A stretch of 64,000 bases of DNA from Acidovorax sp. GBBC 1281 (GTDB taxonomy: Bacteria > Pseudomonadota > Gammaproteobacteria > Burkholderiales > Burkholderiaceae_C): NCBI RefSeq assembly GCF_028473645.1, contig NZ_CP097269.1, positions 2,684,001-2,748,000 of the forward strand, in the 5' to 3' direction. Positions within the stretch are counted from its first letter, which is position 1. Each line of letters starts with the position of its first letter. The notes below the pieces were generated by a model that saw nothing but the letters and a program-made list of their open reading frames with translations, did not search any database and had not been told where the DNA came from. Shown here one piece after another: positions 1-16,812 of this stretch. A program made the translations under genes and the position numbers.

Positions 1-1033
1 GGTACTGCACCGGCTGGGGAATGTAGCGCTCCGCACCGGACTTGATCCAGACCACCGGTTCGTTGGCACTGTTGCGCACGATGGCCTGCGCAGGCAGGAC
101 AAAGCCCTTGACCTGCTCGGTCAGCGAGGCCACGACGGTGACGGGCTGTCCGACCGCCAGCGGCAAGGCTGTGCCCGATGGCTCCGAGACGGCCCTGAAA
201 GTCATCGGCAGGACCCCATCACGCAGGCTGCGCGCAGCGCCGATCAGCTGCAGCTTGACGCCAGACACCCCTTGCAAGTGGGCCTGGCCGGTGCGCGTGG
301 GCAAGCCCGGGTCGGCCGTGGTGGCCTCCACCAGCACGCGTGCCGGGTCAATCACCTCGAACAAGACTTCGCGGGCCTCGACCACCTGGCCTTTGGTCAC
401 ATCGGCCCTGGCAATCACGCCGGACACCGGAGCCAGCAAGGGCTCTCGGGCGGCCAGGCTCGCTCCAATGCTCTTCTCGCGCGCCGTGAGGCTCTGCAGC
501 TCGGCACGTGCGGCCTCGATCTCCTTGCGCGGCACCGTGCCTTCAAGGGACTGCAGCCGCTGCACCCGCTGTGCAGCCAGCTCCCGGCTACTGCGCAACT
601 CGGCCTGCTGGGCCTGCTGGTTGGCCAGGGCATAGGGCTCGGCGTGGTGGGCCACATAGGCCAGCACCTCGCCCTGCCGCACGGTCTGTCCGGCAACCGG
701 TAGTCCACGCGGTCCCGCTTCGATGCGTCCCCCATGGACCGCCTGGACACGACCGCTCGCATTGGGGTCCACGACCACCCGGCCTGGCAACTCGATGGTG
801 GCTGCGGCCTGGGTTTCCGGGCTCAGTTGCGTGCGGATGCCCAGGCGCCGCTGGGCGAGCATCGGAACGTTGACACTGCCGTCCGGCAAACGCATCAACC
901 CGGATGCACTGACCGCCGTGGGTGCGTCCAGGTGTTCACCATTGGGGCCATGAGCCCCCGGCGCCGCGCTGGCAGACGATGTAAACACCGCCGTGATGAG
1001 CGCGATGGCGGACAGGCCGAGGACGTAACGCAT
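1..1033 (-). CDS. RND efflux periplasmic adaptor subunit, CzcB/CusB type (3' end outside window)
   Basis: The minus-strand frame is open from an ATG at 1033 to the window edge, so the C-terminus is missing. After a signal peptide (ending near SASAAPG) comes the motif GAHGPNGEHLD, then a membrane-fusion-protein core: a biotinyl-lipoyl half (QAVHGGRIEAGPRGLPVAGQ), a helical hairpin rich in Gln, Leu and Arg, and a second lipoyl half followed by beta-barrel sequence (REPLLAPVSGVIARADVTKG). The visible end, GAERYIPQPVQ, is typical of heavy-metal RND adaptors. By family knowledge it bridges the inner-membrane RND pump and the outer-membrane factor. It starts 32 bp after the upstream gene, with AAAGG before the ATG, and belongs to the same operon. 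CzcB-like fits better than CusB because CzcC- and CzcI-like genes lie upstream; the metal cannot be read from the sequence. Confidence 0.88.
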   Translation of the reverse strand, partial: MRYVLGLSAIALITAVFTSSASAAPGAHGPNGEHLDAPTAVSASGLMRLPDGSVNVPMLAQRRLGIRTQLSPETQAAATIELPGRVVVDPNASGRVQAVHGGRIEAGPRGLPVAGQTVRQGEVLAYVAHHAEPYALANQQAQQAELRSSRELAAQRVQRLQSLEGTVPRKEIEAARAELQSLTAREKSIGASLAAREPLLAPVSGVIARADVTKGQVVEAREVLFEVIDPARVLVEATTADPGLPTRTGQAHLQGVSGVKLQLIGAARSLRDGVLPMTFRAVSEPSGTALPLAVGQPVTVVASLTEQVKGFVLPAQAIVRNSANEPVVWIKSGAERYIPQPVQY

Positions 1034-1065
1034 GCCAGTTGCCTTTGTTTGTGCAAGGGGATAGG

Positions 1066-1698
1066 TCACAGCGCGCCTCCCTGGGGCGAAGTCCCTGCAG
1101 CCTTGGGCTTGCGCCCGAAGAACCAACCGACAGCTGCCAGGACGGCCAACGCCAAAGCGAGCCAGACGGTGCGGGACGGCCCGTGGGCGTGGCCGTCATC
1201 GTGAGCATGGCCGTTGGCATCGGTCGCTGCGCCTGCCACGGTGAGCGTGCCATCCAGCAGGTCGGTGTCATTGCCTGCGAGAACGCTCACCACCATGGGG
1301 TGATCGCCGGGCGCGGCCAGCGCCTTGAGCATGTTGGCGTCGTCGATGGCGTAGTCCCCCATGTCCGCATGGAACTTGGCTGGCGCCTTGAGATTCCCGC
1401 TCTCCACTTCAACCGTGGCGTTGAGCACGGGTTCGTTGGTGGCAAAACGGTTGATCAGGATGGAAAGCTCTCCACCCTGCAGTCGGCCTACCAACTCGAA
1501 AGCCTCCGAGCGGGCCTCAAAACTGGGCACCGGGCCGCTGTTGGCTCCTGCTTGGGTGGCTGCATCCAGATGCTCGCCGTTGGGCCCGTGTGCCCCTGGT
1601 GAGGCGAAGGCAGTCGTGTTTGTCAGCACCAGCACGGCAAAGCCCGCACCCAGCAATGGGCTGCGGTAACGGGAGGGGAATAGATTCAAGGGGTTCAT
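1066..1698 (-). CDS. Membrane-anchored CzcB-N-domain-like protein with His-rich linker
   Basis: This 210-residue protein has an N-terminal signal or anchor (about residues 10-33), then GAHGPNGEHLD, the same motif as near the N-terminus of the adaptor encoded next. A beta-rich domain follows (about 60-165; FELVGRLQGGELSILINRFA, then DLLDGTLTV) that resembles the N-terminal extension of long CzcB adaptors. A histidine cluster (HAHDDGHAHG, about 170-180) precedes one transmembrane helix and a short basic tail. Its ATG overlaps the stop of the czcC-like gene (ATGA, 1695-1698), so translation is probably coupled. Inferred role: periplasmic metal capture or hand-over to the efflux complex. A stand-alone copy of this domain is unusual. 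Confidence 0.75.
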   Translation of the reverse strand: MNPLNLFPSRYRSPLLGAGFAVLVLTNTTAFASPGAHGPNGEHLDAATQAGANSGPVPSFEARSEAFELVGRLQGGELSILINRFATNEPVLNATVEVESGNLKAPAKFHADMGDYAIDDANMLKALAAPGDHPMVVSVLAGNDTDLLDGTLTVAGAATDANGHAHDDGHAHGPSRTVWLALALAVLAAVGWFFGRKPKAAGTSPQGGAL

Positions 1699-2990
1699 GG
1701 AAGGATTCCGAGAGATTGCTGGAGACGGGCACGGGCCAGGCCCAGTGCCGCTTGCTGGCGCGCGAAACTGGCCTCGGCCTGGGTAGCGGCTGCGAACGCG
1801 CGCAACAACTCCGGCAGCGGGGTTTCTCCAGCCTTGAAAGACCGGTCGATGAGGGCGGCACGCTCTCGCAGCAGTACCGAGCGCTGGCGATCAGCCTCCC
1901 ATTGCTGCTCGGCCGTGTGCACCGCAGCCTGTGCCATCGCGGCGTCAGCAGCCAGACGCTCATCGGTTCGCTGTTTCGTGGTCAGCGCTACGTCCAGCTC
2001 GCTCAGTGCAGCCGCCTGCAGCGGCTGGTTCCGACTCGCTGTGCCCAGAGGAATCCGCAAACCGACCCCGATGCTGTTTTGCGCCGACTCGCCCCGGCCG
2101 GGGGTTTCTTGCCGGATGCGCAGCAAAAGCTCAGGGGGATCGCGCCGTGTGGCGGTCACCACATCCAGTCGCTTGCGAGCACGTTCCACCGCCAGTGCCG
2201 CGACACGCGCGTCTGGGTGCGTTTCAACGGAAAACTCCCGAGAATCGGAGGAGCCTGCGGCGGCGTCTGGTGAGGCATTGGCCTGCGCAAGGTCAGGCAC
2301 CAGGGCCAAACCTGTCAGCGTCGTCCATTGCATCGCACTGGCGTTCAGGCGTTGGCGAGCTGTCAGCTGCGCGGACTGCGCAGCCAGTGCCTCTGACTGG
2401 GCTGCAAGCCCATCCGCATGGGCCAGATCTCCCGCTTTGACACGGCGGCGCACGTCCTCGGAGATATCCTGCAGAGATCGCACCTGGGCGTCCGCCAGGT
2501 CGGCCTCGGCCTTTTGGGCGGCAATGCCCCAGGCGGCTTCGCGTACCAGCCCGGCGAAATGCAAGCGCCCCGCTTGAACGGCAGCTTGGGACAGATCTAC
2601 GTCCGCATTGACAGCCGCGCCACGGGCAGTGCGCTGTCCAGGCAACCACAGTGGCCAAGCCAGGCCGACCTCGGCCTCCCGGCGTCCAGCCGACGTTTGC
2701 CAACGGTCATCTCGGTAGGACAACTCCAGTGCCGGGGGAGCCGCCCACGGGCTGGAAATAGCTAACCGCTCGGCAGCAGCCCTCTGTGTCTGGCCCTCGG
2801 CTTCTCTTGCCTGCGCGGCACGCTGCCATGCGGCCTCCACCGCTTGCGCCAGTGTGGGAGCCACTGGCGATGCAGTGGTTGAAAGCAATGGGGCGGTGTT
2901 GGACTGCGCAAAAGCAGCACCAACGAGGGCGCAACTCAGAGCGCAGCCTGCGGCGTAACGCACCGAAAGCCCGGAATGAACAAAAATCAC
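1695..2990 (-). CDS. czcC: TolC-family outer-membrane factor, CzcC-like
   Basis: A 431-residue outer-membrane efflux protein. A signal peptide (cleavage near GAAFAQS) is followed by two long Gln/Ala/Arg-rich coiled-coil repeats, as in TolC barrels. Recognisable CzcC-type stretches include PPALELSYRDDRWQTSAGRR, EVGLAWPLWLPGQR and GVGLRIPLG, and the end RARLQQSLG. By family knowledge it forms the exit duct for metal ions pumped by CzcA through the adaptor. The start is GTG at 2988-2990 with AGGA just upstream, and no in-frame ATG fits better. It is followed with a 4-bp overlap by the CzcB-N-domain-like gene. The 124-bp gap upstream contains a strong hairpin. Confidence 0.87.
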   Translation of the reverse strand: MIFVHSGLSVRYAAGCALSCALVGAAFAQSNTAPLLSTTASPVAPTLAQAVEAAWQRAAQAREAEGQTQRAAAERLAISSPWAAPPALELSYRDDRWQTSAGRREAEVGLAWPLWLPGQRTARGAAVNADVDLSQAAVQAGRLHFAGLVREAAWGIAAQKAEADLADAQVRSLQDISEDVRRRVKAGDLAHADGLAAQSEALAAQSAQLTARQRLNASAMQWTTLTGLALVPDLAQANASPDAAAGSSDSREFSVETHPDARVAALAVERARKRLDVVTATRRDPPELLLRIRQETPGRGESAQNSIGVGLRIPLGTASRNQPLQAAALSELDVALTTKQRTDERLAADAAMAQAAVHTAEQQWEADRQRSVLLRERAALIDRSFKAGETPLPELLRAFAAATQAEASFARQQAALGLARARLQQSLGILP

Positions 2991-3076
2991 GTGATTCCTG
3001 ACCGATCAAAGGCGGTACACCAGGATCGTTGACGCATAAGCGCCTGATCGACAAGGTCTACCGCACCGATGAACAA

Positions 3077-3101
3077 CCTCGCTTTCGTGTGGAAAGCGAG
3101 G
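3077..3101. promoter_or_regulatory. Hairpin between czcI-like and czcC-like genes
   Basis: A perfect 10-bp inverted repeat (CCTCGCTTTC / GAAAGCGAGG) encloses a 5-nt loop. It lies 13 bp past the czcI-like stop and 87 bp before the czcC-like start. No U-run follows on the minus strand, so it is more likely an mRNA processing or stabilising element, or a partial attenuator, than a full terminator. Confidence 0.55.
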
Positions 3102-3114
3102 CGCTATGGGTGGA

Positions 3115-3471
3115 TCAGGAAATCAGTCGGGGAGGTCGTCGCAAACCGTCCAGATAGGGGGACGGGGTGACGGATTCGGCGGAGACGGCCGGTGCGGGCG
3201 AGCCGTCGAGGGGAAGCGACAGCTGGGGGAAGTGAAAAAGTGCTGCGGTCCCTGGCCCTGCTTCTGCCAGCATGTGCTGAATCGACTCCTGGGAGTCGTC
3301 CTGGTGCATCACACCATCTTCGTCATGATGGTGCGCGGCACCTTCCAAATGCATCTCGGCGTGTGCCACCTGAAAACCTCCTTCATGGTCGAACGCGACC
3401 GTCTGGCGGGCCGTTGCGAAGGCCTGGCAGAAGAAGGAGAGCAGCAAAATGACTGCGAGCAGTCGGCGCAT
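3115..3471 (-). CDS. CzcI-like small exported histidine-rich protein
   Basis: A 118-residue protein with a clear signal peptide (MRRLLAVILLLSFFCQAFAT). The mature part has a metal-binding look: AHAEMHLEGAAHHHDEDG and MHQDDSQESIQHM. The C-terminus has PYLDGLRRPPRL, similar to the Pro/Arg tail of CzcI-type proteins. The frame runs upstream to 3600, but that extension is low-quality basic sequence, and the ATG at 3471 places the signal peptide at the N-terminus. Position first in a czc operon and length both fit CzcI, a proposed periplasmic modulator of cobalt-zinc-cadmium resistance. The Cys/His motif of classic CzcI is not obvious, so the family assignment is tentative. Confidence 0.68.
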   Translation of the reverse strand: MRRLLAVILLLSFFCQAFATARQTVAFDHEGGFQVAHAEMHLEGAAHHHDEDGVMHQDDSQESIQHMLAEAGPGTAALFHFPQLSLPLDGSPAPAVSAESVTPSPYLDGLRRPPRLIS

Positions 3472-3726
3472 TGAATGGTTAGCAGGCGATTGAGAACTGG
3501 TCGCAATGATAGCCGCAGACTGCGGTTCCCTTCCAGAAACCCACATCCGGTACTTGGTGTACCTAGACCGTACAGGCATGTGCCGAGGGCGCCGCTTCAC
3601 TAGTGCGGTAGCCCTCCATACAGGCGGCTCCAGCGGTCATCGCCAACACTGCGAACGCAATACGCCAGCGAGTTGGCGATTCGCCGCAAGAGCCAGGCAG
3701 CGCGTGAGCGCGGGCCCACTGCAGCG

Positions 3727-5052
3727 TCACGATGGAGTCCCCGGCGAGATATCGGACCTATCTTTCTGGGAAAGGCGTGTGGCCAAAATTTTGTCGATGG
3801 TCTTGCCATCCATGTCCACCACCTCCAGCTTCCAGCCTTCCCATTCCACACTGTTCGTCACCCCTGGCAAGGACCCAGTGAGCAGCATCACCATGCCGCT
3901 GAGCGTGTGGTAGCGGCCGCGCTCTTCTTCGGGCACCGTGTCCAGGTTCAGGCGGTCCTTCAGCTCTGGCACGGGGATATGGCCGTCCAGCAGCCAGCTG
4001 CCGTCCTCGCGCTGCAGCGCCCACGAGGTCTCGGGGTCGCGCGGCTGGAACTCGCCGGTAATGGCCTCGATGAGGTCCTGCAGCGTCACGATGCCCTGCA
4101 CCTCGCCGTACTCGTCGATCACAAACGCCATGTGCACGTCCGACAGGCGGAAGTTATCCAGCAGTTCCATGCCGGTGATGGTTTCAGGCACGTACAGGGC
4201 CGTCTGCAGCGGCTGGTCGGCCAATCCGCCGCGCGCCTTGTCGCGCAAGGTGCGGGACAGCCACTGGCGTGCGTTGATCACCCCCAGGATGTTGGCCATG
4301 CCGCCGCGCACGACCGGGAAGCGCGCGTGGTCGGATTCTTCGATGCGTCGGAGGTTGTCTTCAAACGGGGCATCGATGTCCAGACACACCACATCCCCGC
4401 GCGGCACCATCAGCGACCCGATCTGGCGGTCGTCCAGCCGGAACACGTTGCGCACCATGGTGTGCTCGTGCGACTCGATCACACCGGCCGTCGTGCCTTC
4501 CACGAGCATGGCGTGGATCTCTTCTTCGGTCACCGGGCTGCCGCTGGTTTCCTTCACGCCCAAGAGGCGCAGCAGCGTGCGCGTGGACGTGGACAGCAGC
4601 AGCACGAACGGCTTGGTCGCCAGCGCCAGGAAGTTGATGGGCCGCGCCACCAGGCGGGCAAAGGTCTCGGGGTACGACTGGCCGATGCGCTTGGGCACCA
4701 GTTCGCCCACCACGATCGAGAAGTACGTGATCAGTACCACCACCAAGCCGGTGGCGGCATAGTTGCCGTAGGGCTGGGGCATGCCCAGCGAGTAGAGCCA
4801 CGATGCCAGCGGCGCAGCCAGCGCGGCCTCGCCGACGATACCGTTGAGCACGCCGATGGACGTGATGCCGATCTGGATGGTGGAGAGAAAACGCGTGGGG
4901 TCTTCACCCAGCTTCACGGCAGCGGCAGCGCCGCTATCGCCCTCATCAATCAGCTTTTGCAACCGGACTTTGCGGGCCGTGACCAGAGCGATCTCTGACA
5001 TGGCAAACAATCCGTTCAGGAGGATCAAGGCGAAAAGTATGGCAATTTCCAT
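3727..5052 (-). CDS. CNNM/CorC (hemolysin C) family membrane protein with CBS pair
   Basis: A 441-residue protein. The DUF21/CNNM transmembrane domain (about residues 1-190: EIAILFALILLNGLFAMSEI, then GELVPKRIGQSYPE) is followed by two CBS domains (about 210-340: MVPRGDVVCLDI, ARFPVVRGG, FVIDEYGEVQGIVTLQDLIE). A C-terminal CorC_HlyC transporter-associated domain (about 355-430: GSWLLDGHIPVPELKDRL, then LEVVDMDGKTIDKI) completes it. The family is linked to magnesium/cobalt homeostasis at the inner membrane. The start is the ATG at 5052; the longer frame to 5208 adds non-family sequence. It is transcribed alone, and whether it works with the czc genes is unknown. Confidence 0.9.
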   Translation of the reverse strand: MEIAILFALILLNGLFAMSEIALVTARKVRLQKLIDEGDSGAAAAVKLGEDPTRFLSTIQIGITSIGVLNGIVGEAALAAPLASWLYSLGMPQPYGNYAATGLVVVLITYFSIVVGELVPKRIGQSYPETFARLVARPINFLALATKPFVLLLSTSTRTLLRLLGVKETSGSPVTEEEIHAMLVEGTTAGVIESHEHTMVRNVFRLDDRQIGSLMVPRGDVVCLDIDAPFEDNLRRIEESDHARFPVVRGGMANILGVINARQWLSRTLRDKARGGLADQPLQTALYVPETITGMELLDNFRLSDVHMAFVIDEYGEVQGIVTLQDLIEAITGEFQPRDPETSWALQREDGSWLLDGHIPVPELKDRLNLDTVPEEERGRYHTLSGMVMLLTGSLPGVTNSVEWEGWKLEVVDMDGKTIDKILATRLSQKDRSDISPGTPS

Positions 5053-5258
5053 GATGGAGTTCTTTGAGGTTAGGTACTGGCGCATCCACAGATGCATGCG
5101 TGAACAGCAATGCCTGTACCGAGGGAATTCAAACGGAAGTGGTGATTGATTCAGCGCGCAAGCATTCGCTGGGGCGACGCCCAGGTGGTTGCAGCTGACC
5201 AATGGCATAGGGGGCCGTGTGACATGTGGCCCCGCGCGTTACCTGCGCGCGCAGATGA

Positions 5259-5600
5259 TCAAGCGACGAGGCCTGACACCTTCGGCGGTTTGTGAGGGGG
5301 ATCCTTGATCGCGGATGGCGCTTTGTTTATGCGCAGTGGGACCGCGGCGACAGGATTGGCAGTGTACGAGGTGAGCGGAGCGCGCGGCTCCAACTGGTCT
5401 GGAAGTTCACCCTTGTCGTCCATCAAGGCGTGATCGTCCGCATCGGAGAATGCGACGGGGATCCCTGATCCAGCATTCAGACTGTGCTCAGTCGGCCCTT
5501 GGTCGTGAGAGAGCGTAAATGCCGGATTCAAACCGGCAGCAGAAAACCCCACGCACAGGAGAAAGTGGAAAATCAGAACCGCAATGAAGCGCCGTGGCAT
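5259..5600 (-). CDS. Small exported hypothetical protein
   Basis: A 113-residue protein not recognised as a named family. It has a convincing signal peptide (IAVLIFHFLLCVGFSAAG). The mature part contains His/Asp-rich sequence (SHDQ, DADDHALMDDKGE) and ends in a Pro/Lys-rich tail (KDPPHKPPKVSG). Size, export signal, acidic/His middle and Pro-rich tail recall the CzcI-like protein at 3115-3471, so it may be another small metal-resistance accessory protein. This is inference from composition and proximity. It has its own ATG at 5600 and lies just outside the island genes that follow. Confidence 0.55.
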   Translation of the reverse strand: MPRRFIAVLIFHFLLCVGFSAAGLNPAFTLSHDQGPTEHSLNAGSGIPVAFSDADDHALMDDKGELPDQLEPRAPLTSYTANPVAAVPLRINKAPSAIKDPPHKPPKVSGLVA

Positions 5601-5625
5601 CGTGGGTGAATTATAGGGACGGTGG

Positions 5626-6159
5626 CTACCCCAGATTCTTGCTCCATCTCCGAATGCGTGTTGTCAGGCGCTTGCACTCATCCTTCGTGAGTGGCATTGC
5701 ATCCACCAGATCCAAAGCCTGCTGAGTCTTGACATGACCATGCCTGAGCAACGCCTGGCAGAACATCTGATCCTTCTCGCGTGCGGCTGCCGCCTTGGAC
5801 AAGAACAGATCTACGACGTCCAAGCACCAACCAATACGGCTGTCGGTGTTTCCGTTCTGAATCTTCCACAGACGGGTCTGCCATCCCTCGGGCAAGACGG
5901 CTGTCTCCGGGCCTACTCCCTGTGCGTAGAAACCATGGACTCGGTGAAACTCTGAACCTTCTCCAATGTTCCCGTCGATCTTGTCGGCCAACTCAGGGGC
6001 ATTGCGCGGGTAAATGTCCGCTTCCGCCGACATTTTGAACTCAGGCTCTGGATACGGAATCTGGCCCAGGATTGACTGGCTTCCAACAATCACGAACTCG
6101 TATTCGTTGGTGATGGTGGCGCTGGCGCGGATGAGGTGCTCCAGTTCGTGGCGGTTCAA
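5626..6159 (-). CDS. Nucleotidyltransferase-fold protein (DUF6036-like), likely toxin of a TA pair
   Basis: A 177-residue protein. The N-terminus LEHLIRASATITNEYEFVIV leads into GSQSILGQ, the glycine-serine motif of minimal nucleotidyltransferases. MSAEADIYP (about residues 43-51) supplies acidic residues in the place of the D/E-x-D metal site. A helical C-terminal half follows. This matches DUF6036-type nucleotidyltransferases, relatives of AbiEii-like toxins. The start is TTG at 6159, whose last two bases lie in the TGA stop of the XRE gene (TTGA overlap); the family-like N-terminus begins exactly there, so coupled translation is likely. Proposed role: NMP-transferring toxin held in check by the XRE partner. 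The biochemical target is unknown. Confidence 0.72.
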   Translation of the reverse strand: MNRHELEHLIRASATITNEYEFVIVGSQSILGQIPYPEPEFKMSAEADIYPRNAPELADKIDGNIGEGSEFHRVHGFYAQGVGPETAVLPEGWQTRLWKIQNGNTDSRIGWCLDVVDLFLSKAAAAREKDQMFCQALLRHGHVKTQQALDLVDAMPLTKDECKRLTTRIRRWSKNLG

Positions 6160-6824
6160 CTTGGAGCCCCCTTGCCCAGCACGATTCCTTTCTTGAGTTT
6201 GGAGATTTCGGCAAGGATCCTCATACGCTCAGCGGTCGGCAGTACAGGCGTCAGAGGCGAAGCCTGACGTAGCTCTTGGGCATGCCGGGTCCTACCCAAA
6301 GCCTTGCTCCATTTGCCCTGTTCAAGAATGTCCTTCCATTCCAACCATAGGCCTGCAGAACGCTGATTGCCGGAGCCGAGCCACGTATCGAGGGTCTGTT
6401 TTGCCTCCCGCAGCAGCAACGGGTGCGAGCGCACGTACTTGACCGCCTCCTCGTGCAGCACCAAGCTCTGCAAATCCTGTGCGTTATGACGCGTGTTGTC
6501 CGTAGATACCGTCACCTGCACCTGAGGCGCGCTACGTAACGACCGTGCTGCCGCCGAGTCGGCCGGCGCCGGGTGGATCACATCACCTGCCAGCAGGGCC
6601 AAATCTGCGCCAATGCCCAACTCGGACATGACACGCAAGTACGTCCCGATGGAAGGAGCAGGATCACCCGCCTCGACGGCACTGAGCGTCGTGCGTGAAA
6701 TCCCCACACGCCTGGCCATTTCTACAGCGCTCAACTTGCGCGCCTTGCGCAGACGGCGCAGCCTGTCGCCTAACTGAAGTAGCAATTGGCGCTGGAGTAC
6801 GGAAGAGCTTTCCTGTGAATTCAT
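6156..6824 (-). CDS. XRE-family helix-turn-helix regulator, likely antitoxin
   Basis: A 222-residue protein. The N-terminal Cro/C1-type HTH (about residues 16-60: LGDRLRRLRKARKLSAVEMA, then GISRTTLSAVEAGDPAPSIG) is clear. A linker and a C-terminal helical part (about 110-222) follow without a named domain. It is the first gene of a two-gene unit with the nucleotidyltransferase, with which it overlaps. By analogy with XRE/nucleotidyltransferase modules it should bind its own promoter, and a perfect palindrome with TTTGTCCA/TGGACAAA arms lies 31-52 bp upstream. It sits next to the tnpS-like gene, where Tn3-family transposons often carry toxin-antitoxin pairs. Confidence 0.78.
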   Translation of the reverse strand: MNSQESSSVLQRQLLLQLGDRLRRLRKARKLSAVEMARRVGISRTTLSAVEAGDPAPSIGTYLRVMSELGIGADLALLAGDVIHPAPADSAAARSLRSAPQVQVTVSTDNTRHNAQDLQSLVLHEEAVKYVRSHPLLLREAKQTLDTWLGSGNQRSAGLWLEWKDILEQGKWSKALGRTRHAQELRQASPLTPVLPTAERMRILAEISKLKKGIVLGKGAPS

Positions 6825-6854
6825 ATGTTCACTGTTTTACTCAAAATTGAATAT

Positions 6855-6876
6855 TTTGTCCAATATTATGGACAAA
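6855..6876. promoter_or_regulatory. Palindromic operator upstream of the XRE gene
   Basis: Perfect 8-bp arms TTTGTCCA and TGGACAAA are separated by 6 bp (ATATTA). The site lies 31-52 bp before the XRE start, in an AT-rich stretch. On the minus strand TTGTCC or TTGGAC inside it could serve as a -35 box, so a bound dimer would block the promoter. Autorepression by the XRE protein is inferred from position. Confidence 0.65.
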
Positions 6877-6920
6877 TGCATGCTGGATGCGAGTCGGTCA
6901 TGTGAGAGGCAACGCAAGAC

Positions 6921-8129
6921 TCAAGGCGACGACCATCCCACCCTGTGTTCTCTGGAAGTGAGATCGTGGCGCGCATCATCTTCGGTGTGCACATAGATGC
7001 TGGTGGTGGCGATGTTTGCATGGCCAAGGTTGTCGCGCACAGCTTTCAGATCCATGTTGTCGCTCTGGTGGGTGCCGGCCGTATGGCGTATCCAGTGTGC
7101 GGAGGCCTGCTCTACATGGGCAGCTGCCGCCTCATGGTCGGGTCCGAGGGCCCGCAAGCGAGTTGCGGTATCTCGAAAGACGCTCTTGACAAGCTCATGC
7201 ACGGCACTGCGTCCCATAGGCTTGGCCCCACCAATAAGCGGCAAAAGCAGTGGAAGCGCGTCGCCTTCGCGCGGAAGCGAGGCCAAGTCGTTCGCCTTGC
7301 GGTATCGCATCAACTCTGATATCAGCTCATCAGTTGCTGGGATCACTCTGGCTTTTTCTCCCTTGCCTCGAATTTCGAGCCACCAGCGCTCACGTCCATC
7401 AGCGCCACGGCGCCAGTAAAAGTCGCCCATGGAGTTGTTGCAGACCTCAGAAATCCGCAGGCCCCCGATGTAGAGAAGCGTGAAGAGCCATCGGTATCGG
7501 GCCGCCTGGAGGGCAAGGCGAGGTGTGCCGGTTGACAGAGACTCAATCGTTGCGCGCACTTGCGCCCAGTGCTCATGAGGCAGGAACCTGCTGGTCTTGG
7601 TGGGTCGTACCACGGCCTTGCGGCGCCGCAAGGCAAGGGGATTACCCGCGAGATACCCGGCTTGAACCAGCCAATTGAAGAGACTATTGAGGATCGACAG
7701 TGCCTGGCGCTGGCTCTGCCGGTCCAACGGCTTGGCGAACGGACGCCAGTGGGGCGAAGACCTCGGTGCCTTCTGAGCGACCTGCATGACCCATAGACCA
7801 ACCGGTTGGGGATCTTCCAAAAAGGACTCGTAGGCCAGAAAGTCCTCATGGGTCAGATCGGACAGGGCCTTCCCGTGCTGATGCACACACCAAAGCAGCA
7901 GCCTTTCTGCCTCCTTGCGATAGCTGGCCAGAGTGGCGGGGGAATCTTTGTAGCGCGCCAGCCAAGCCAAAACCGCCGACCGATCGTCATTGGCCGCGAC
8001 CTGAGGCAGGCCCTGAGCCCGATTGCGTCCACGCTCTCCAGACAGATGAAGGGGGAGCACCAAGCCCTCCAAAGGCTCAAGATGCGAAAAAACTGGCGCT
8101 GCGACGATCAAACTGCTCATTGGCGGCAT
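6921..8129 (-). CDS. tnpS: Tyrosine site-specific recombinase, TnpS-like resolvase of a Tn4651-type transposon
   Basis: A 402-residue phage-integrase-family recombinase. An N-terminal SAM-like core-binding domain (about residues 50-165) precedes a catalytic domain with all expected residues: R225 (GGLRISEV), K257 (RGKGEKAR), H345 and R348 (AHWIRHTAGT), H370 (NLGHANI) and Y379 (TSIYVHTEDD). It is divergent from a KfrA/TnpT-like gene with an 81-bp AT-rich gap, which is the arrangement of the tnpS-tnpT cointegrate resolution system of Tn4651-type Tn3 transposons. By that comparison it would act at a site in the gap. Alternatives are an integrase of another integrative element. The start is the ATG at 8129; an internal Met at 8120 is also possible. 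No tnpA is present in the window. Confidence 0.85.
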   Translation of the reverse strand: MPPMSSLIVAAPVFSHLEPLEGLVLPLHLSGERGRNRAQGLPQVAANDDRSAVLAWLARYKDSPATLASYRKEAERLLLWCVHQHGKALSDLTHEDFLAYESFLEDPQPVGLWVMQVAQKAPRSSPHWRPFAKPLDRQSQRQALSILNSLFNWLVQAGYLAGNPLALRRRKAVVRPTKTSRFLPHEHWAQVRATIESLSTGTPRLALQAARYRWLFTLLYIGGLRISEVCNNSMGDFYWRRGADGRERWWLEIRGKGEKARVIPATDELISELMRYRKANDLASLPREGDALPLLLPLIGGAKPMGRSAVHELVKSVFRDTATRLRALGPDHEAAAAHVEQASAHWIRHTAGTHQSDNMDLKAVRDNLGHANIATTSIYVHTEDDARHDLTSREHRVGWSSP

Positions 8130-8210
8130 TCTATGGACATTAGATTAATTATGTCCAAAAATTAGAAATAAATTCAATGATTCATACGTTATACGTTGTA
8201 TTATTTTAAA
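8130..8210. other. Candidate resolution (res/rst) site and divergent promoters
   Basis: The 81-bp gap between tnpS-like and tnpT-like genes is strongly AT-rich. It contains a perfect 7-bp inverted repeat TGGACAT-N10-ATGTCCA (8134-8157) and, closer to tnpT, a TACGT direct repeat (in CATACGTTATACGTTG). In Tn4651-type elements the recombination core lies in this divergent gap. The assignment rests on position and the repeats; crossover bases cannot be named. Confidence 0.5.
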
Positions 8211-8945
8211 ATGAATAAGGAATCTAACATCCAAGCCGAAGTGGAGGCCCTGCGGGAGCGATTCAGCGATACCAAAGCGCTGTACCGTGAGGTTTGCGCT
8301 TTGCTGTTTTTCCGATACGGCATCACGCCCACCGCGAGCAAGCTGTATCAGCACGTGCGAAAAGGATCCATGAGCGCCCCGGCCGAAGCACTGGCCAAGT
8401 TCTGGGAAGAGCTGCGCGGCAAAGCGAGAGTGGAAATAGACCACCCGGACCTTCCCGATGCGCTGAAGCAGGCCGCTGGCCAGGCGGTCAGCGTGTTGTG
8501 GACGCAAGCGACCGAGTTGGCGCGCGAGGATCTGGCGGCACTGCGGGTTGAGGCCCGCACGGAAGCCCAGAGCGCACAGGCGCAGCTGCATGAAACTCAG
8601 CAACACAGCAGTTCCCTGGAGGAACAACTACAGACCGCGCAAAGCAAGTGTGCCGAGCTGGAAAGCAGGCTCCAGAACCTGGCTGCAGAATTGGAGCAAG
8701 AGCGGCGTGCGCACGCCGGCAGCGCGGCACGTGGCGAGACGCTATCCCGGCAGGTGGGTGAACTAAAGCTGGAACAATCCAAGAGCCGGCAGCATTTCAG
8801 CGCTGAGTTGGAAAAGGGACGTGCAGCCATTGATGAAGCAGCCCAACGTGCTACGGACGCGGAGCACCGGGCCCTTCGCGAGATTGACCGTGAGCGCACC
8901 GCTCGTGCGCTTGCTGACAAACAACTGGATCAATTGCGCGGCAAG

Positions 8946-10040
8946 CTAGTGTCCTGTCCCGTTAATTCGCCCGCATAGTCTGGCGAGTTTTTCGAGGATG
9001 GAGTCTGCTGTAGCTGTCCAAGTAAACGGCTGGCAGGACTGGTTGTAATTCGCGATGAATGTGTCGATCTTGTTGATCAGATCCTTCACGCTGGTGAACG
9101 AGCCACGGCGGATTGCCCGCGTGGTGATGATCGAGAAGAAGCGCTCGACCTGATTGAGCCAGCTTGAATAGGTCGGAACGAAGTGCATGTGCCAGCGAGG
9201 CCGCTCGGCCAACCAAGCGCGCACCTTTGGATGCTTGTGGCTGGCGTAGTTATCAGCTATGCAGTGCACATCCAGTTCGTCGGGCACTGCCTTGTCGATG
9301 GCGCGCAGGAAGGCAAGGAACTCTTGATGACGATGCCGGGGCCGGCACTGCGCGATCACTTGGCCATTCATCACGTTCAGGGCCGCGAACAAGGTGGTGG
9401 TGCCGTGGCGCACGTAGTCGTGCGTGACACCTTCGACATAGCCAAACCCCATTGGCAGCATCGGCTGCGTACGCTCCAAAGCTTGGCATTGGCTCTTCTC
9501 GTCCACGCACAGCACCAGCGCGTTGTCAGGTGGGTTCAGGTACAGCCCCACAACGTCGCGCAGCTTCTCGATGAACAGCGGATCGGTCGACAGCTTGAAG
9601 CTGTCGGCCCGGTGCGGCTTGAGGTTGAAGGTCTGCAGATAGCGCGCCACCGTGCTCTTGCTGATGCCCGTATCGGCGGCCAGCGTGCGGGTGCTCCAGT
9701 GGGTACCCCCATCAGCAGGCTTGGTGTGCAACGTCTTGGTAATCAACTCAGCAACACGCTCGTCATCTACCGTGCGGGGGCGACCCGGGCGCAACTCGTC
9801 GTAAAGCCCTGCAATGCGATGGCGCGCATAGCGCCCGCGCCACTTGGTGACAGTGCTACGACTGATCCCCAGAGCCTGCGCAACCGCGGTGCTGGCTTTA
9901 TCTGTGCCTTCGCAAGTCAGCACGATGCGCGCCCTGAGCGACAACGCCGCTGGCAGCGAACGTGATCGCGCCATGGACGTCAGTTCCGCGCGCTCCACTT
10001 CACTAAGCGCAATTTCTGTTCGGGTCGTTGCATTGGGCAT
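8946..10040 (-). CDS. IS630-family DDE transposase
   Basis: A 364-residue protein. N-terminal winged HTH domains (about residues 30-140: AQALGISRSTVTKWRGRYAR and GISKSTVARYLQTFNLKPHR) are followed by an RNase-H-like DDE domain with D180 (LCVDEKSQ), D263 (IADNYASHKHP) and E299 (WLNQVERFF). It catalyses excision and insertion of the IS. Start is the ATG at 10040. The reading frame runs to the very end of the inverted repeat (GRINGTGH), and its stop TAG is made from the TA target duplication plus one flanking base, so the C-terminus depends on the insertion site. Confidence 0.95.
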   Translation of the reverse strand: MPNATTRTEIALSEVERAELTSMARSRSLPAALSLRARIVLTCEGTDKASTAVAQALGISRSTVTKWRGRYARHRIAGLYDELRPGRPRTVDDERVAELITKTLHTKPADGGTHWSTRTLAADTGISKSTVARYLQTFNLKPHRADSFKLSTDPLFIEKLRDVVGLYLNPPDNALVLCVDEKSQCQALERTQPMLPMGFGYVEGVTHDYVRHGTTTLFAALNVMNGQVIAQCRPRHRHQEFLAFLRAIDKAVPDELDVHCIADNYASHKHPKVRAWLAERPRWHMHFVPTYSSWLNQVERFFSIITTRAIRRGSFTSVKDLINKIDTFIANYNQSCQPFTWTATADSILEKLARLCGRINGTGH

Positions 10041-10107
10041 GGCGGCACCTCAAGGATGGCCCGAAACCATGCAGCTATCGTGCCTGCGAATTAACGGGAC
10101 AGGACAC
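8949..10107. mobile_element. Complete IS630-family insertion sequence inside tnpT
   Basis: The element is 1,159 bp with 21-bp terminal inverted repeats that match perfectly (GTGTCCTGTCCCGTTAATTC, plus one more base). It is bounded by TA on both sides (8947-8948 and 10108-10109), the target duplication of IS630/Tc1-mariner elements. It carries one transposase gene on the minus strand. The uninterrupted target survives in the second tnpT fragment (TA at 10814-10815), which confirms both ends. Confidence 0.95.
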
Positions 10108-10491
10108 TAGCGGAAACCGAACGGGACTGTCACGCCAAACTACTTGAAGCCAATGCTGCACAGAGCAGGTTGGCGGCAGAGATAGACGGTGCTCGCGCCT
10201 CCTTGGCCGAAATCACCAGGGCGCACCAAGCGCAATCGGCCGAGCTACAGCAAGTTCTTCAGGCAGTTGCACAGCACAAGGCCGAAGCTGGCACCTTGCG
10301 TGAACTGGTGGAGCAGTTCAGACCGACGCAGAGATCTTCTCGTAAAAAGCGTGGTGGTGAAGCGCCAGAGGTCAAGTGAGCAGGCTTCTGGCGAGTCATG
10401 GTTGACGCGTCAATACAAGAGGGAATAAATGACGGTGCTTTAATAACCAAAAGGCTTATGAGTCAAAACTGGCCGTATCCTGGCTTGCCCT

Positions 10492-10981
10492 CAACTACAG
10501 ACCACGCAAAGCAAGTGTGCCGAGCTGGAAAGCAGGCTCCAGAACCTGGCTGCAGAATTGGAGCAAGAGCGGCGTGCGCACGCCGGCAGCGCGGCACGTG
10601 GCGAGACGCTATCCCGGCAGGTGGGTGAACTAAAGCTGGAACAATCCAAGAGCCGGCAGCATTTCAGCGCTGAGTTGGAAAAGGGACGTGCAGCCATTGA
10701 TGAAGCAGCCCAACGTGCTACGGACGCGGAGCACCGGGCCCTTCGCGAGATTGACCGTGAGCGCACCGCTCGTGCGCTTGCTGACAAACAACTGGATCAA
10801 TTGCGCGGCAAGCTAGCGGAAACCGAACGGGACTGTCACGCCAAACTACTCGAAGCCAATGCTTCAGGCAACTGCACAGCACAAGGCTGAAGCTGACACT
10901 TTGCGTGCACTGGTCGAACAGTTCAGGCCTGCGCAGAAGTCTCCCCGTAGAAAGCGTGGCGTGGAAGCGCCAGAAGGCTAG
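10492..10981 (+). pseudogene. Second, mosaic fragment of the tnpT-like gene
   Basis: From 10492 this copies the tnpT sequence starting at 8625 almost perfectly (single-base differences such as ACCACGC for ACCGCGC), but without the insertion sequence. At 10862 about 101 bp present in the first copy (10157-10257) are missing, which breaks the frame. The last 120 bp (to the TAG at 10979-10981) are clearly more diverged from the first copy, though still encoding a basic tail (KSPRRKRGVEAPEG). It has no N-terminal domain. The best reading is a recombinant remnant of two related tnpT genes. The 112 bp before it (10380-10491) show nothing recognisable. Confidence 0.85.
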
Positions 10982-11136
10982 TGAAAAGGGCAGCTGTTGA
11001 GCCAGCGAGAAGTGCCCTCAGGACAGCGGCGGTTTTGCGTGATGCCCAACGGTCCGCTAGGGACTAAACCACCTTCGATTCCTCCAGAACACAAGCATTG
11101 AGAAAAAGCTTCCCGAAGTCAGTGAGCTTGATGCAG

Positions 11137-12187
11137 GGCGCTGTTGCACAAATCGAATTGCAGACGGCATGACCCCAACCCCAGACGGACCTATGCCACA
11201 GCAGTCACCGACACGGTGTGAGGACGGCCGATCTGACTGAACCGATTGAGCAAGGCCACGCGGACATGCAGCTCCACAACCTGGCGGTCGAACGTGCGCG
11301 CGATCACCCGTTCGCCCAGTCGCTTGAAGCAGTGCATCTTCGTCTCCACAAGGCTGCGCCGGTGGTAGCCGCTCCACTTCTTCCAAATGCCGCGACCCAG
11401 GCGCTGGCACGCCCGAATGGCCTCATTACGATGCGCCGAGCCCGGACTCGACTTCTTCCAATGGCTGGCGTTCTTGCGGGGCGGGATCACCGCCATCGCG
11501 TGCCGCTCGGCAATGGCGTCCAGGCAGGCGCGCGTGTCGTAGGCGCCATCGGCACTGACGCTTTCGATGGATTCGTCAGTGGGAATCTGAGCCAGCAACC
11601 CGGGCAACATCGGCGCATCCCCAATGGCGTTGCTGGTCACCTCGATGGCGCGTATTTCCAGCGTCTGCGCGTCGATGCTCAGATGGACCTTGCGCCATTC
11701 GCGCCGGTATTCAGCACCATGCTTCTTGCGTTTCCACTCTCCTTCGCCCAGGAACTTGATGCCGGTGCTGTCCACCAGCAACTGCAGCGGCGAGTTGGTT
11801 CGCTGGTAGCTCAGTTCGACCTGCAAGGTCTTTTGGCGCCGGCAAACAGTGCTGAAGTCAGGTACCGGCCAGTCCAGCTTTGCCAGCCGCAGCAGGCTCT
11901 GCACCATGCCCAGCGCCTGTCGCAAGGGCTGGCCGAACAGGCACTTGATGCTCAGGCAGAACTGGATTGCTGCGTCCGAGAAGGTTCGGCTGCGTCCACG
12001 CCTGCCGGTCGGCGTGCCAAACCACTGCATGCCCTCATCTAGCCACATCGTCAACGAGCCTCGCGCTTTCAGCGCCGCGTTGTACGCCTTCCAGTTCGTC
12101 GTGCGGTACTTGCTCCGCTGCCTGTTCTTCGTCTCTGTCACGCAGTCAGTCTACGGGCATCAGCATCGCGATTTGTGCAACAAAGCC
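11137..12187. mobile_element. Complete IS5-family (IS903-like group) insertion sequence
   Basis: The element is 1,051 bp. The ends GGCGCTGTTGCACAAATCG and GGCTTTGTTGCACAAATCG (right end, complemented) match at 17 of 19 positions. It is flanked by a perfect 9-bp direct repeat TTGATGCAG (11128-11136 and 12188-12196), the duplication size of the IS903 group. It carries one transposase gene on the minus strand. Confidence 0.93.
11191..12141 (-). CDS. IS5-family DDE transposase
   Basis: A 316-residue transposase. An N-terminal IS5/IS903-type domain (about residues 14-105: LTMWLDEGMQWF, IQFCLSIKCLFGQPLRQALG) precedes the DDE core: D124 (LLVDSTGIK), D198 (SADGAYDTR) and E267 in the YHRRSLVETKM motif (Y-2-R-3-E-6-K type). 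Length and motifs are complete, so it is probably active. Start is the ATG at 12141, about 46 bp inside the right end of the element. Confidence 0.94.
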   Translation of the reverse strand: MTETKNRQRSKYRTTNWKAYNAALKARGSLTMWLDEGMQWFGTPTGRRGRSRTFSDAAIQFCLSIKCLFGQPLRQALGMVQSLLRLAKLDWPVPDFSTVCRRQKTLQVELSYQRTNSPLQLLVDSTGIKFLGEGEWKRKKHGAEYRREWRKVHLSIDAQTLEIRAIEVTSNAIGDAPMLPGLLAQIPTDESIESVSADGAYDTRACLDAIAERHAMAVIPPRKNASHWKKSSPGSAHRNEAIRACQRLGRGIWKKWSGYHRRSLVETKMHCFKRLGERVIARTFDRQVVELHVRVALLNRFSQIGRPHTVSVTAVA

Positions 12188-12927
12188 TTGATGCAGTGAT
12201 ACTCGAATCCCGGCCTCGCCACGTTGTCAAGCGCTTGCCTGGGAATGTTGGTGTACTCAGTCAATCCCAGGCTCTGCAAATGCTCAAAGAAAGTGAGGAA
12301 AAGCATTGGCTGGGCGAGTTCTTCAGGCCGTACCGCTGCCTGCCGCAGCCTTTCCACGTGTGAAATCCAAAACTCAGAACCGTCGAGCTTGGCGCATGCT
12401 TCGGAGAACAATAGGGCAGGCTCTCCGGGGCCAAGCCGAAAAAACACTCTGTACTCCTGTTCTTCAAGTTGGCGAAGAACGAGTAGTTCGTCGGGTGCTA
12501 GTTGACCAATGATGGACAGGAAAGCTGGATGTGCTTCGCCCACGCGCTCTTTGTCCATCGCGCGGGCCAGCAGGTTTATGTACAAATCTGCAATGGGGTT
12601 GATACCTTCGTCTTCATAGCGAAGGCGCTCACCCACTGGCAATGCAATGGACTCCCGGGGAGCCATGCGGCGCGCTGGGGGAACACGGTCCACGGCCTGT
12701 TGTAAACGTTGTGCCAGACGGTCTTGAAACATGGCGCCGTATTGCAGGGGGAAAAGTATCAGGTGCGCCACCTTTGCATCATTGGCTCCAATTTTTCCGA
12801 ACTCTCGCATCGCAGGTCCAACGGCGTCCGAATACACATCTTTGACCACTGAGGCCGCCACTTGTGCGGTTGTTTGTTCGGTAAGCATTGACAACATATC
12901 CCCGTTGGTAGACCGTTAGGCGGGAAG

Positions 12928-13749
12928 CTACAGGCGATAGGTCTGGATCAGTTCTTTCGCTTTGGCAAACGCGGCCTCGTATCGCTCGGTCGAGGTTCGC
13001 TGCAGATTGCTCACCGCACTCACATGCGCTTCGCGACTGAGTCGATATTCAGCCACTCCAAACCGACCCGCAATGTCATCAACATGAGCTTTGCCCCAGC
13101 AGTCTTCCCCTGTCCCATCCGGATGCAGAACCAAGCTGTGGAAAAATCCATCACTACCGAACCTCATGCCTTCAGAACCTGGTTTAAAGCGGACTGCTAG
13201 CAACGCTACCGCGTCCAACCCTGTTTGTTCACGCAGCGCTTCAGCGAAGGCAGCACATCGCCCAAAAGTGTAGTCAGCAGCATCAGCAGCTGGAATGTAG
13301 GGTGGCGTCCTCTTTGGAATTGAATTGAGGTAAGCAGTATTGGCCTCAATGGCTTTGGCCGCACTTTCAATTTTGGCTGAGTCTGGGCGGAAGCGCAGGG
13401 GTAGTGATTCCAACCTCGATTCAACGTAGTAGCGCGTTCTGACCCCACCAGGTCCATGGCGCACCGCCAACGGACGAATAGTTCGGGCATTGAAGTCATC
13501 CACGGACCTTAATCCTCGCACGTCAAAAACGCCGAATCCATTGTCAGCTACATAAACGCGTAGTGGCTTGCACCGCTCAAGAGAGATATTGTTGTCAGGG
13601 TCCAGCGATGGCACCCACCAGTCCACGTGCAGCAGCCAACCCGTCAGCCGTGCGAGGGCGACCGCAAAATTGACGCAATCTTCAGACTCCCATTCTTCGA
13701 CCAACTCTGGCGCAAAGGCGGTACGTTGCTTGAGCTTCGCTTGTCCCAT
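12928..13749 (-). CDS. Unrecognised 273-residue protein
   Basis: No family is recognised. The start is the ATG at 13749, preceded by a strong ribosome site (GAGGAGGG); the longer frame to 13833 would pass through that site. The N-terminus (MGQAKLKQRTAFAPELVEEW) and ARLTGWLLHVDWWVPS look like conserved soluble sequence. Later stretches such as YTFGRCAAFAEALREQTGL, MRFGSDGFFHSLVLHPDG and CWGKAHVDDIAGRFG contain Cys, His and Asp that could form a catalytic or zinc site, though this is speculative. No signal peptide or transmembrane segment is seen. It ends 30 bp before the DUF4393 gene on the same strand, so the two may be co-transcribed, and it is divergent from the 511-residue gene at 13946. 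Confidence 0.72.
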   Translation of the reverse strand: MGQAKLKQRTAFAPELVEEWESEDCVNFAVALARLTGWLLHVDWWVPSLDPDNNISLERCKPLRVYVADNGFGVFDVRGLRSVDDFNARTIRPLAVRHGPGGVRTRYYVESRLESLPLRFRPDSAKIESAAKAIEANTAYLNSIPKRTPPYIPAADAADYTFGRCAAFAEALREQTGLDAVALLAVRFKPGSEGMRFGSDGFFHSLVLHPDGTGEDCWGKAHVDDIAGRFGVAEYRLSREAHVSAVSNLQRTSTERYEAAFAKAKELIQTYRL

Positions 13750-13808
13750 TTTTCCCTCCTCAACTGGACACATGTCTTTTGTGCAAGCTGATTGTGCAGT
13801 AGAGTTAA

Positions 13809-13829
13809 GGCTGGTGACCGTCACCAGCC
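13809..13829. promoter_or_regulatory. Perfect 21-bp palindrome in a divergent promoter region
   Basis: Arms GGCTGGTGAC and GTCACCAGCC are fully complementary around a single central C. It lies 60 bp before the gene at 13749 (minus) and 117 bp before the gene at 13946 (plus). With a 1-bp centre it is a poor RNA hairpin but a good site for a symmetric DNA-binding dimer. The binding protein is unknown. Confidence 0.55.
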
Positions 13830-16037: not shown

Positions 16038-16394
16038 ATGGAGATTCCATTGCCAAAGACACTTGCGCAAGTGAAGAGGCGCCTCGAAGAGGCGATGAAT
16101 GAGGCCAGCGATGCAGAGGAACTTATTCCCCTCATGAAAAAGGCTATAGCCCAATTCGACTTGGAGCCTGGTGACCTTTTTGAGCAGCGCCCAGAAAGCT
16201 CAAGACTGGCAACGCCTAACATCTCCAAAGCGCGAGATGCAACAGCGCAAGCCAAGGCGGTTTATCAGGACGCTGATGGCAACACGTGGGCTGGGCGCGG
16301 ACGTCGCCCTACATGGCTGAACGAAGCGCTTGAGCGCGGAAAGACCTTGGAAGATTTCAAGCGCGCTGGGGCCCGTGCTCGTAAGGCTAAGTGA
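16038..16394 (+). CDS. H-NS family nucleoid-associated protein
   Basis: A 118-residue protein. A predicted N-terminal oligomerising helix region (about residues 8-50: LAQVKRRLEEAMNEASDAEE) is followed by a linker and the H-NS C-terminal DNA-binding domain (about 75-110: YQDADGNTWAGRGRRPTWLN, then GKTLEDF), with the AGRGRRP hook that inserts into the AT-rich minor groove. By family knowledge it silences AT-rich foreign DNA. Encoded at the right edge of the island, it may restrain the island genes or interfere with host H-NS proteins. The start ATG at 16038 has no strong ribosome site. Confidence 0.85.
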   Translation: MEIPLPKTLAQVKRRLEEAMNEASDAEELIPLMKKAIAQFDLEPGDLFEQRPESSRLATPNISKARDATAQAKAVYQDADGNTWAGRGRRPTWLNEALERGKTLEDFKRAGARARKAK

Positions 16395-16413
16395 TTGATA
16401 ACGAAGAACTTTT

Positions 16414-16812
16414 TTGTTCAAGTTTCCTGTTTTGCTCGAAAACCGAGACTACCCCCGCTGGGGCGACATGGGCCATGTGAACAACACCGTGTACTTCCGC
16501 TATCTGGAGACGGCCCGCATCGACTGGCTGGTCGCGGCGGGCTGCAACCCCGACCCGCAGGGCCAGGGGCCGGTGATCGTGAATGCTTTCTGCAATTTCT
16601 ACCAGCAGCTCGAATACCCGGCCGAGGTGCTGCTCAAGCTCTACGTGAGCGACCCGGGGCGCACCACGTTCGAGACCTGGGGCACCATGGAGCGCGCGGA
16701 CCAGCCCGGCGTGGTGTGCGCGGCCGGCGGTGCCACGACCATCTGGGTGGACTTTCCGCGCAAGAAAGCCGTGGACCTGCCGGCCTGGGTGCGCGCGCTG
16801 GTGGGCGGGTGA
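16414..16812 (+). CDS. Acyl-CoA thioesterase (4HBT/YbgC hot-dog family), possibly 5'-truncated
   Basis: A 132-residue hot-dog thioesterase: RWGDMGHVNNTVYFRYLETA, then FYQQLEYPAEVLLKLYV and ATTIWVDFPRKK. Such enzymes hydrolyse short acyl-CoA or phenylacyl-CoA. Two things are odd. The only possible start is TTG at 16414, since a stop lies 15 bp upstream and no ATG is available, right where AT-rich island sequence ends. Also, the catalytic loop is shorter than the usual D-x-D-x-x-GHVNN, as three residues appear to be missing, which moves the catalytic Asp relative to the His. Island insertion may have removed the native start and promoter. Activity is uncertain. Confidence 0.75.
   Translation: MFKFPVLLENRDYPRWGDMGHVNNTVYFRYLETARIDWLVAAGCNPDPQGQGPVIVNAFCNFYQQLEYPAEVLLKLYVSDPGRTTFETWGTMERADQPGVVCAAGGATTIWVDFPRKKAVDLPAWVRALVGG

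Follow-up and report, generated by a model that had tools for sequence, protein, structure and literature searches.

An XRE-headed protein and a DUF6036 nucleotidyltransferase in an Acidovorax Tn3-family transposon: a conserved pair with the features of a toxin-antitoxin module

What does a small nucleotidyltransferase do beside a helix-turn-helix (HTH) protein with which its gene overlaps? The question is raised by positions 5,626 to 6,876 of the window, a 64,000-nucleotide stretch of Acidovorax sp. GBBC 1281 (contig NZ_CP097269.1, positions 2,684,001 to 2,748,000). A preliminary description of this DNA had taken the pair for a toxin-antitoxin-like module with its own operator. We favour an autorepressed, type II-like toxin-antitoxin module with a MenT-like toxin, with a probability of about 0.62. 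We read the pair in this way because the partner gene comes first and overlaps the enzyme gene, the enzyme was never seen without the partner, the partner has a core that can stand alone and heads that are exchangeable, and the operator follows the head. Both reading frames were confirmed in the window's list of open reading frames (ORFs), and the overlap of four nucleotides (nt) through a TTG start in a TGA stop, as originally described, was read from the sequence. The protein-coding features are the following.

5626..6159, minus strand: DUF6036 nucleotidyltransferase, proposed toxin (177 amino acids, TTG start, PF19502 match)
6156..6159, minus strand: TTGA gene overlap, nucleotidyltransferase TTG start and XRE gene TGA stop (window sequence)
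6156..6824, minus strand: XRE-headed partner, proposed antitoxin and autorepressor (222 amino acids, ATG start, HTH_31/HTH_3, HipB-like head)
6576..6791, minus strand: XRE/HipB-like HTH head of the partner, residues ~12-83, recognition helix RTTLS (Pfam and structure matches)
6177..6491, minus strand: core of the partner, residues ~112-216, almost all-helical, H..DxxSLxxH ... W ... W ... LRQxSP ... R (without a Pfam model)

The pairing of an HTH protein with a minimal nucleotidyltransferase (MNT) was borne out by Pfam, in which HTH_31/HTH_3 and DUF6036 were matched above cut-off. The locus has the layout of type II systems, a small operon of two co-occurring genes that overlap or lie close together, with the partner upstream. 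No RNA was found at gathering score in an Rfam scan of positions 5200-8400.

The pair was compared across 91 loci, made up of the best 80 of 292 relatives from a genome-contig scan with a 12-enzyme alignment and of 11 plasmid loci; they include some near-duplicates. An upstream ORF was counted as the partner if its end fell no more than 56 nt inside or 12 nt ahead of the enzyme start and if it contained the motif R[QNESR]x[STNPA]P[LMFY]. A partner was present at all 91 enzyme loci. The motif lay in an open frame in 89 of them, including L031, which is frameshifted ahead of the motif, and in the remaining two the partner was recognisable but frameshifted. In the 89 open-motif loci the partner was always upstream of the nucleotidyltransferase (only the upstream side was inspected), with a 4-nt overlap in 49, a spacing of 14 nt in 14 and of 20 nt in 10. 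Since these loci had been chosen by their closeness to the query, the pairing was retested on genome samples. In a phylum sample of 398 genomes the enzyme subfamily was found in ten, including the window's own, and the core adjoined it in 10/10. In a family sample of 200 genomes the enzyme was found in 33, and at 30/30 enzyme loci examined (30 genomes) a same-strand core match lay no more than 150 nt away. Conserved co-occurrence, for which a survey had been proposed, was thus recovered in all three sets. If the favoured reading is true, this would be a common, unnamed toxin-antitoxin type, given its presence in 33 of the 200 sampled genomes of the family.

The dependence is not mutual. The core occurred without this enzyme in 11 of 21 core-bearing genomes, although two of these matches, at E 6e-5 and 2e-4, are weak. 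Eight of the genomes belong to one family, in which the core is a gene of 105-141 amino acids. These genes (L126, L127, L129, L131, L132 and L134-L136), from one other family of the same class, consist of roughly the core only and have no matching nucleotidyltransferase; in L131 the gene after the lone core is one that we take, from its sequence, to be lexA-like. A partner core without the enzyme was also seen in L125, from the same genus as the window.

The window enzyme matched PF19502 (DUF6036) with 33.6 bits, against a curated cut-off of 23.6, and the family was matched by all 57 of 57 aligned enzymes. In the phylum sample 13 of 19 PF19502 loci lacked the partner core, and the pairing therefore belongs to this enzyme subfamily and not to DUF6036 as a whole. 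The enzyme motifs are intact: S44-x-E46-x-D48, K122, R127, K129 and D130 (window numbering) were conserved in 67-70 of 70 aligned enzymes, position 44 being S or T in 70/70. The invariance of GS26-27 is partly by construction, as these residues lie inside the search pattern of the genome-contig scan. An AlphaFold model of the enzyme (predicted local distance difference test, pLDDT, 96.9) had MenT1 as its best fold match. The active-site residues of MenT1 are T39, D41, K137 and D152 (PMC10435456; here and below, statements from cited papers refer to the parts of their text that were available). S44, E46, K122 and D130 follow these in the same order, a pairing that is our own and was made with no residue-level structure alignment.

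The upstream proteins proved to be modular. Their N-terminal parts diverge, and they share a C-terminal core of ~100 residues. In an alignment of the window protein with 60 of the other 89 partners (n=61), W163, R186 and P190 were present in 61/61 and R200 in 60/61, followed by S120 (58), S or T at 189 (58), H124 (57) and Q187 (55). Heads with a HTH_31/HTH_3 match were found in 37 of the 61. Rarer heads matched DUF6088 in one partner and HTH_38 in another (by eye L009 and L012); other heads, assigned by eye, were a basic RGRPRK...AERMRAYRKRKR-like stretch in L076, L083, L086 and L090 and a cysteine-rich, zinc-ribbon-like stretch in L085, and some partners were headless. Judged from these alignments, the conserved unit is the enzyme together with the ~100-residue, predicted helical core, and the XRE head is apparently dispensable. 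The identification of the XRE protein as the enzyme's partner holds in that the overlapping pair is conserved, but what is conserved in the partner is the C-terminal core, and the XRE head is not needed. Should the favoured reading be correct, the antitoxin would consist of one fixed toxin-binding core with exchangeable DNA-binding heads, the XRE heads having their own operator code.

When 30 cores alone were searched against Pfam, only scattered matches with E above 0.01 were obtained (1-3 members each), and none of the 30 matched in PADLOC. For the window XRE protein PADLOC gave only generic HTH matches, and its NCBIfam matches were confined to the head and linker (residues 7-119). In searches of PDB folds with the whole partner the results were taken up by HTH proteins that match the head, so that an AbiEi, HEPN or MenA fold is possible for the core. 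This bears on a reading of type VII kind, in which the roles would be those of HEPN-MNT (HepT-MntA), the core being the toxin and the nucleotidyltransferase an antitoxin that modifies it. Such pairs, built on a small nucleotidyltransferase, are widespread (PMC3710099, PMC2701414), and like the present one they are two-gene modules in which the nucleotidyltransferase is accompanied by a helical protein. Nearly all of the core is helical, R at position 119 precedes the mostly conserved H124 by five residues (RX4H) in 21/61 cores, and 39/61 partners have an RX4-6H string at some point in their C-terminal part. However, position 119 is Q in 37/61 cores, including that of the window, no single arginine-histidine pair is conserved as it is in HEPN proteins, and none of the 61 partners matched a HEPN or HepT family at E 0.01. 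The gene order is also reversed, the MNT gene being almost always first in HEPN-MNT (PMC3710099) and second here, and the core is also present in the 11 of 21 core-bearing genomes that lack the enzyme. With the conserved arginine absent, a HEPN toxin in the partner was set aside, and we regard the reversed assignment as very unlikely.

The DNA before the partner gene carries two operator-like sites.

6855..6876, no strand assigned: operator-like site O1, TTTGTCCATAATATTGGACAAA, 30 bp upstream of the start codon; TGGACA in the right arm a possible -35 box (by eye)
6825..6846, minus strand: degenerate operator-like site O2, TTTTGAGTAAAACAGTGAACAT, immediately upstream of the ATG and over the -10 position (33-locus consensus)

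O1 is an exact palindrome, TTTGTCCA-N6-TGGACAAA (8+6+8), and with up to 3 mismatches tolerated its 18-nt core has no second occurrence in the window. In the 150 bp upstream of the window gene alone, an arm as long arose in ~1/60 dinucleotide shuffles (p ~0.02). The palindrome statistics at this locus alone are modest; the comparative evidence is strong. Upstream regions were scanned for the best match to TTTGTCCAN6TGGACAAA (16 positions), with expectations from dinucleotide shuffles. At least 12 of 16 positions matched in 23 of 55 XRE-type loci (0.3 expected), in 19 of these 23 at 28-32 nt before the start codon, and at least 11 positions matched in 35 (2.8 expected). Among the 34 other loci the corresponding counts were 0 (0.2 expected) and 2 (1.2 expected). 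This class holds at least four XRE proteins missed by the XRE-start pattern (L014, L027, L031 and L049), and of all its rows only L014 and L027 reach 11 matches. The choice of start codon was doubtful in some rows, e.g. L016, L033 and L055, in which the best site lies 5 nt from the start that was chosen. The window's own sequence TGTCCATAATATTGGACA recurs unchanged in L071 and L074, two members of a separate supported clade; there the site lies 28 nt upstream of the start.

The best match lay exactly 30 nt before the start codon in 33 of 56 XRE loci (window included), and the consensus of these 33 was t.TGTtCA..Aaa.T.G.CAAatt......tTTTG.cTA.AAT.cTG.ACAa|ATG. It contains a second site with similar half-sites, which lies over TA.AAT and reaches the start codon. 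A TANNNT hexamer ending 7-14 nt before the start was present in 48/56 XRE loci (the window not among them) and in 8/34 others, and a Shine-Dalgarno-like sequence upstream in 0/56 and 3/34, respectively. This arrangement suggests a leaderless or nearly leaderless transcript that would be repressed from both promoter boxes. The palindrome claimed as the operator of the pair is accordingly exact and conserved in homologues, but it is one of a pair of sites and is tied to the XRE head, not to the enzyme.

Recognition helices and half-sites agreed. The helix RNTLR went with a TGACC half-site in 12/12 informative rows and the other helices with TGGAC/TGAAC half-sites in 39/39, counted on 59 rows with 8 ties set aside; 3 more, with enzyme frames of <150 residues, were dropped from the tree. 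On the enzyme tree helix and half-site both change three times, and only once on well-supported branches. With one to three changes the link between helix and operator is suggestive only, and covariation as a statistical proof was rejected (the Fisher value of 6e-12 ignores kinship and was not used). A third helix class, RMTL, was seen in L044, L045, L047, L049, L051 and L077, with TGTAAA/TTTACAA-like sites in some (by eye L045 and L051); it is perhaps a third operator specificity. On the favoured reading, the XRE-type loci would supply naturally matched pairs of recognition helix and operator, with which the rewiring of autoregulation could be studied.

We propose that the XRE head would dimerise on O1 (over the -35 box) and on O2 (from the -10 box to the start codon) and repress the operon, and that the C-terminal core would keep the nucleotidyltransferase inactive. 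Both proteins would be made together, because their genes overlap. If the partner were lost or diverted, the free enzyme would add a nucleotide to an essential target and growth would stop. The most likely target would be the 3′ end of tRNA, as with the MenT toxins; by this analogy we put modification of tRNA at a little less than an even chance. Carried in a Tn3-family metal-resistance transposon, the module would favour the retention of the element. A function would then be available for part of DUF6036, and MenT and AbiEii would gain a relative in kind.

Several observations weigh against this type II-like reading. Many loci in the set of 91 come from closely related Burkholderiales. The 91 show no asymmetry of decay: both genes are intact in 84, both broken in one, and one lies at a contig end, while a broken enzyme with an intact partner was found in 3/91 and a frameshifted partner with an intact enzyme in 2/91. 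Decay asymmetry as evidence of toxicity was therefore discarded, 3 versus 2 being uninformative. The fold match to MenT1 is near the level that the tool regards as common. Foldseek with the enzyme model gave no match at an E-value of 0.001 or below, sequence searches of the PDB gave 0 and 1 matches, the one being due to chance (E 1.7), and no AbiEii/DUF1814 or MenT sequence family of Pfam was matched by any of the 57 enzymes at E 0.1. The agreement of helix and operator, with its one to three changes on the tree, has no independent statistical weight, and the sequences had been viewed before the half-site classes and the operator pattern were defined. That the palindrome covers the probable promoter, as had been proposed, is upheld by comparison with homologues, but a sigma-70 scan of positions 5560-7000 found no consensus promoter there, and the window's -10 candidate (TAAAAC, by eye) is degenerate, as is its O2.

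The conserved polar residues of the core (S120, H124, R186, S/T at 189) and S/T44 of the enzyme, the one-to-one pairing, and the cores without an enzyme, one of them beside the lexA-like gene, would also fit a signalling switch without a toxin, in which the operon or a regulon is controlled through modification, by the enzyme, of its XRE partner or of itself. Short headless partners, though, have nothing obvious to regulate, and the module is patchy in its distribution (10/398 and 33/200 genomes), like addiction modules. A switch of this kind we consider unlikely. A bolder reading, to which we would give a low probability, is that the LRQxSP core is an undescribed nucleotidyltransferase-controlling domain that is carried on any available DNA-binding head. 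It would block the enzyme and make it modify its own Ser44 (or the Ser/His of the core), as MenA1 induces auto-phosphorylation of MenT1, and the enzyme-less cores would be domesticated regulators of other nucleotidyltransferases or of stress responses.

MenT nucleotidyltransferase toxins are well studied. MenAT1 and MenAT3 of Mycobacterium tuberculosis are the nearest precedent in fold for the toxin-antitoxin reading, without a sequence-family match to the window enzyme. MenA1 (68 amino acids) is apparently without a DNA-binding domain, and MenA3/A4 belong to COG5340 (PMC10435456, PMC11375011); the window core matched neither, with no direct sequence comparison made. In arrangement the window pair resembles the Xre-MNT of Streptococcus suis, an XRE protein beside an MNT (PMC8406773), and in the open-licence literature searched Xre-MNT was found in this species only (PMC8406773, PMC6266264). 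In Xress-MNTss the MNT is toxic in E. coli, the antitoxin binds the promoter and the operon is autorepressed (PMC8406773). MNTss was modelled like kanamycin nucleotidyltransferase and called periplasmic, with pelB secretion constructs listed (PMC8406773), a comparison made here by description only. In another S. suis strain the two genes are 14 bp apart and do not overlap (PMC6266264), and the available part of a survey of predicted systems contains no Xre-MNT pair (PMC2701414). Thus an XRE antitoxin with a nucleotidyltransferase toxin is not new as an idea. The preliminary description had called the pairing poorly characterised. This is right in so far as no mention of ‘DUF6036’ or ‘PF19502’ was found in the literature searched, within which the DUF6036 subfamily, the LRQxSP core, the exchange of heads and the paired operator appear to be undescribed; it is too strong with regard to the MenT toxins and to the S. 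suis pair, which has been tested (PMC8406773).

The module is cargo in a complete 29.9-kb Tn3-family element, which occupies window positions 1-16455 and G000:C1:2670550-2684000. A Tn3-family transposase (PF01526, E 1.2e-92, 991-amino-acid ORF) lies ~10.5 kb to the left of the window, and the element has the terminal inverted repeats and 5-bp target duplication of its family. The left end lies outside the window at G000:C1:2670550, and in the two repeats 29 of 38 terminal bases are alike. From the ORF lists, its cargo presumably includes chromate-type and Czc-type metal-resistance genes. The relevant features in the window are these.

6921..8129, minus strand: TnpS-like tyrosine recombinase (Phage_integrase, 63 bits), same strand as the module and 96 nt upstream of it
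8196..8978, plus strand: TnpT-like KfrA_N protein, 5′ part, divergent from TnpS (KfrA_N, 63.9 bits)
16387..16455, no strand assigned: right inverted repeat of the 29.9-kb Tn3-family transposon (70-bp repeat, 68.6% identity)
16456..16460, no strand assigned: target-site duplication CGCTG (5 bp), with a copy at the left end too

The adjoining recombinase was correctly named TnpS-like, since it is a tyrosine recombinase, divergent from a KfrA_N gene and inside Tn3-family inverted repeats. A toxin-antitoxin pair in the same place is known from TnHdN1.1, a Tn3-family element with tnpS and tnpT, in which a PIN_3/RHH_6 pair lies directly downstream of tnpS in the same orientation; it is the sole tnpS+tnpT transposon with such a pair in the accessible part of that source (PMC7157771). 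Unlike in the window, the toxin and antitoxin are of other families, and the seven pair types listed there include no XRE-nucleotidyltransferase pair (PMC7157771). The position of the module downstream of tnpS inside a Tn3-family element is borne out, but for this module nearness to TnpS was seen only in this genome. The nearness is incidental, and an association with TnpS as a conserved trait was rejected, the pair lying within ~1.5 kb of TnpS in 1/16 family-sample loci, the window's own. Among the 91 loci only L044 had a TnpS-similar recombinase in the fetched flanks (28.6% identity). A related tnpS-tnpT stretch is found on two plasmids (83% and 81% identity, ~1.3-1.4 kb); after the recombinase gene these have either an SMR efflux gene or the defence genes IteAS and Shedu. 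With the module at one of 16 loci and other cargo on the plasmids, tnpS appears to adjoin a cargo slot, with the module as one of its contents.

In the plasmid of Acidovorax sp. T1 (L118, 234-6146), IteA, IteS and a Shedu nuclease are annotated beside the related tnpS, which suggests that such elements may hold a slot for defence cargo. The module itself might then serve in AbiE-like anti-phage defence by abortive infection, with the transposon as its vehicle, a role compatible with a toxin-antitoxin module. Annotated AbiEii-type genes lie within ~6 kb in 4/10 annotated plasmid loci (L005, L007, L008 and L010; 11 were inspected, one unannotated), an uncontrolled count of neighbourhoods. As in AbiEi/AbiEii, a nucleotidyltransferase has an upstream DNA-binding partner, and one distant partner of ten (L009 by eye) matches DUF6088. 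Against this, the window head is XRE/HipB-like and not an AbiEi-type winged helix by Pfam, and the enzyme is DUF6036 and not AbiEii. PADLOC left the window enzyme unmatched, and beyond generic HTH matches its models gave only weak single-member matches to the 57 enzymes (E 0.014-0.067). We see a small but real chance that defence is the role of the module. Carriage of the pair by phages was also considered and dropped, with 0 matches in phages and 0 confirmed in viral contigs.

The tnpT-like gene is cut off at an insertion sequence (IS) with a 364-amino-acid transposase ORF at 8946-10040 (IS630-like by eye), with a similar open stretch beyond it at 10558-10890. Another transposase ORF, also IS-like, occupies 11191-12141. 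Outside the transposon, two ORFs on the same strand (24820-25626 and 24106-24774, together 24106-25626) presumably represent one split tyrosinase-like protein, and the ORF at 25667-27796 is one that we take to be multicopper-oxidase-like. Between 19742 and 36260 (~17 kb), five ORFs resemble what are presumably tripartite tricarboxylate (Bug-type) binding proteins.
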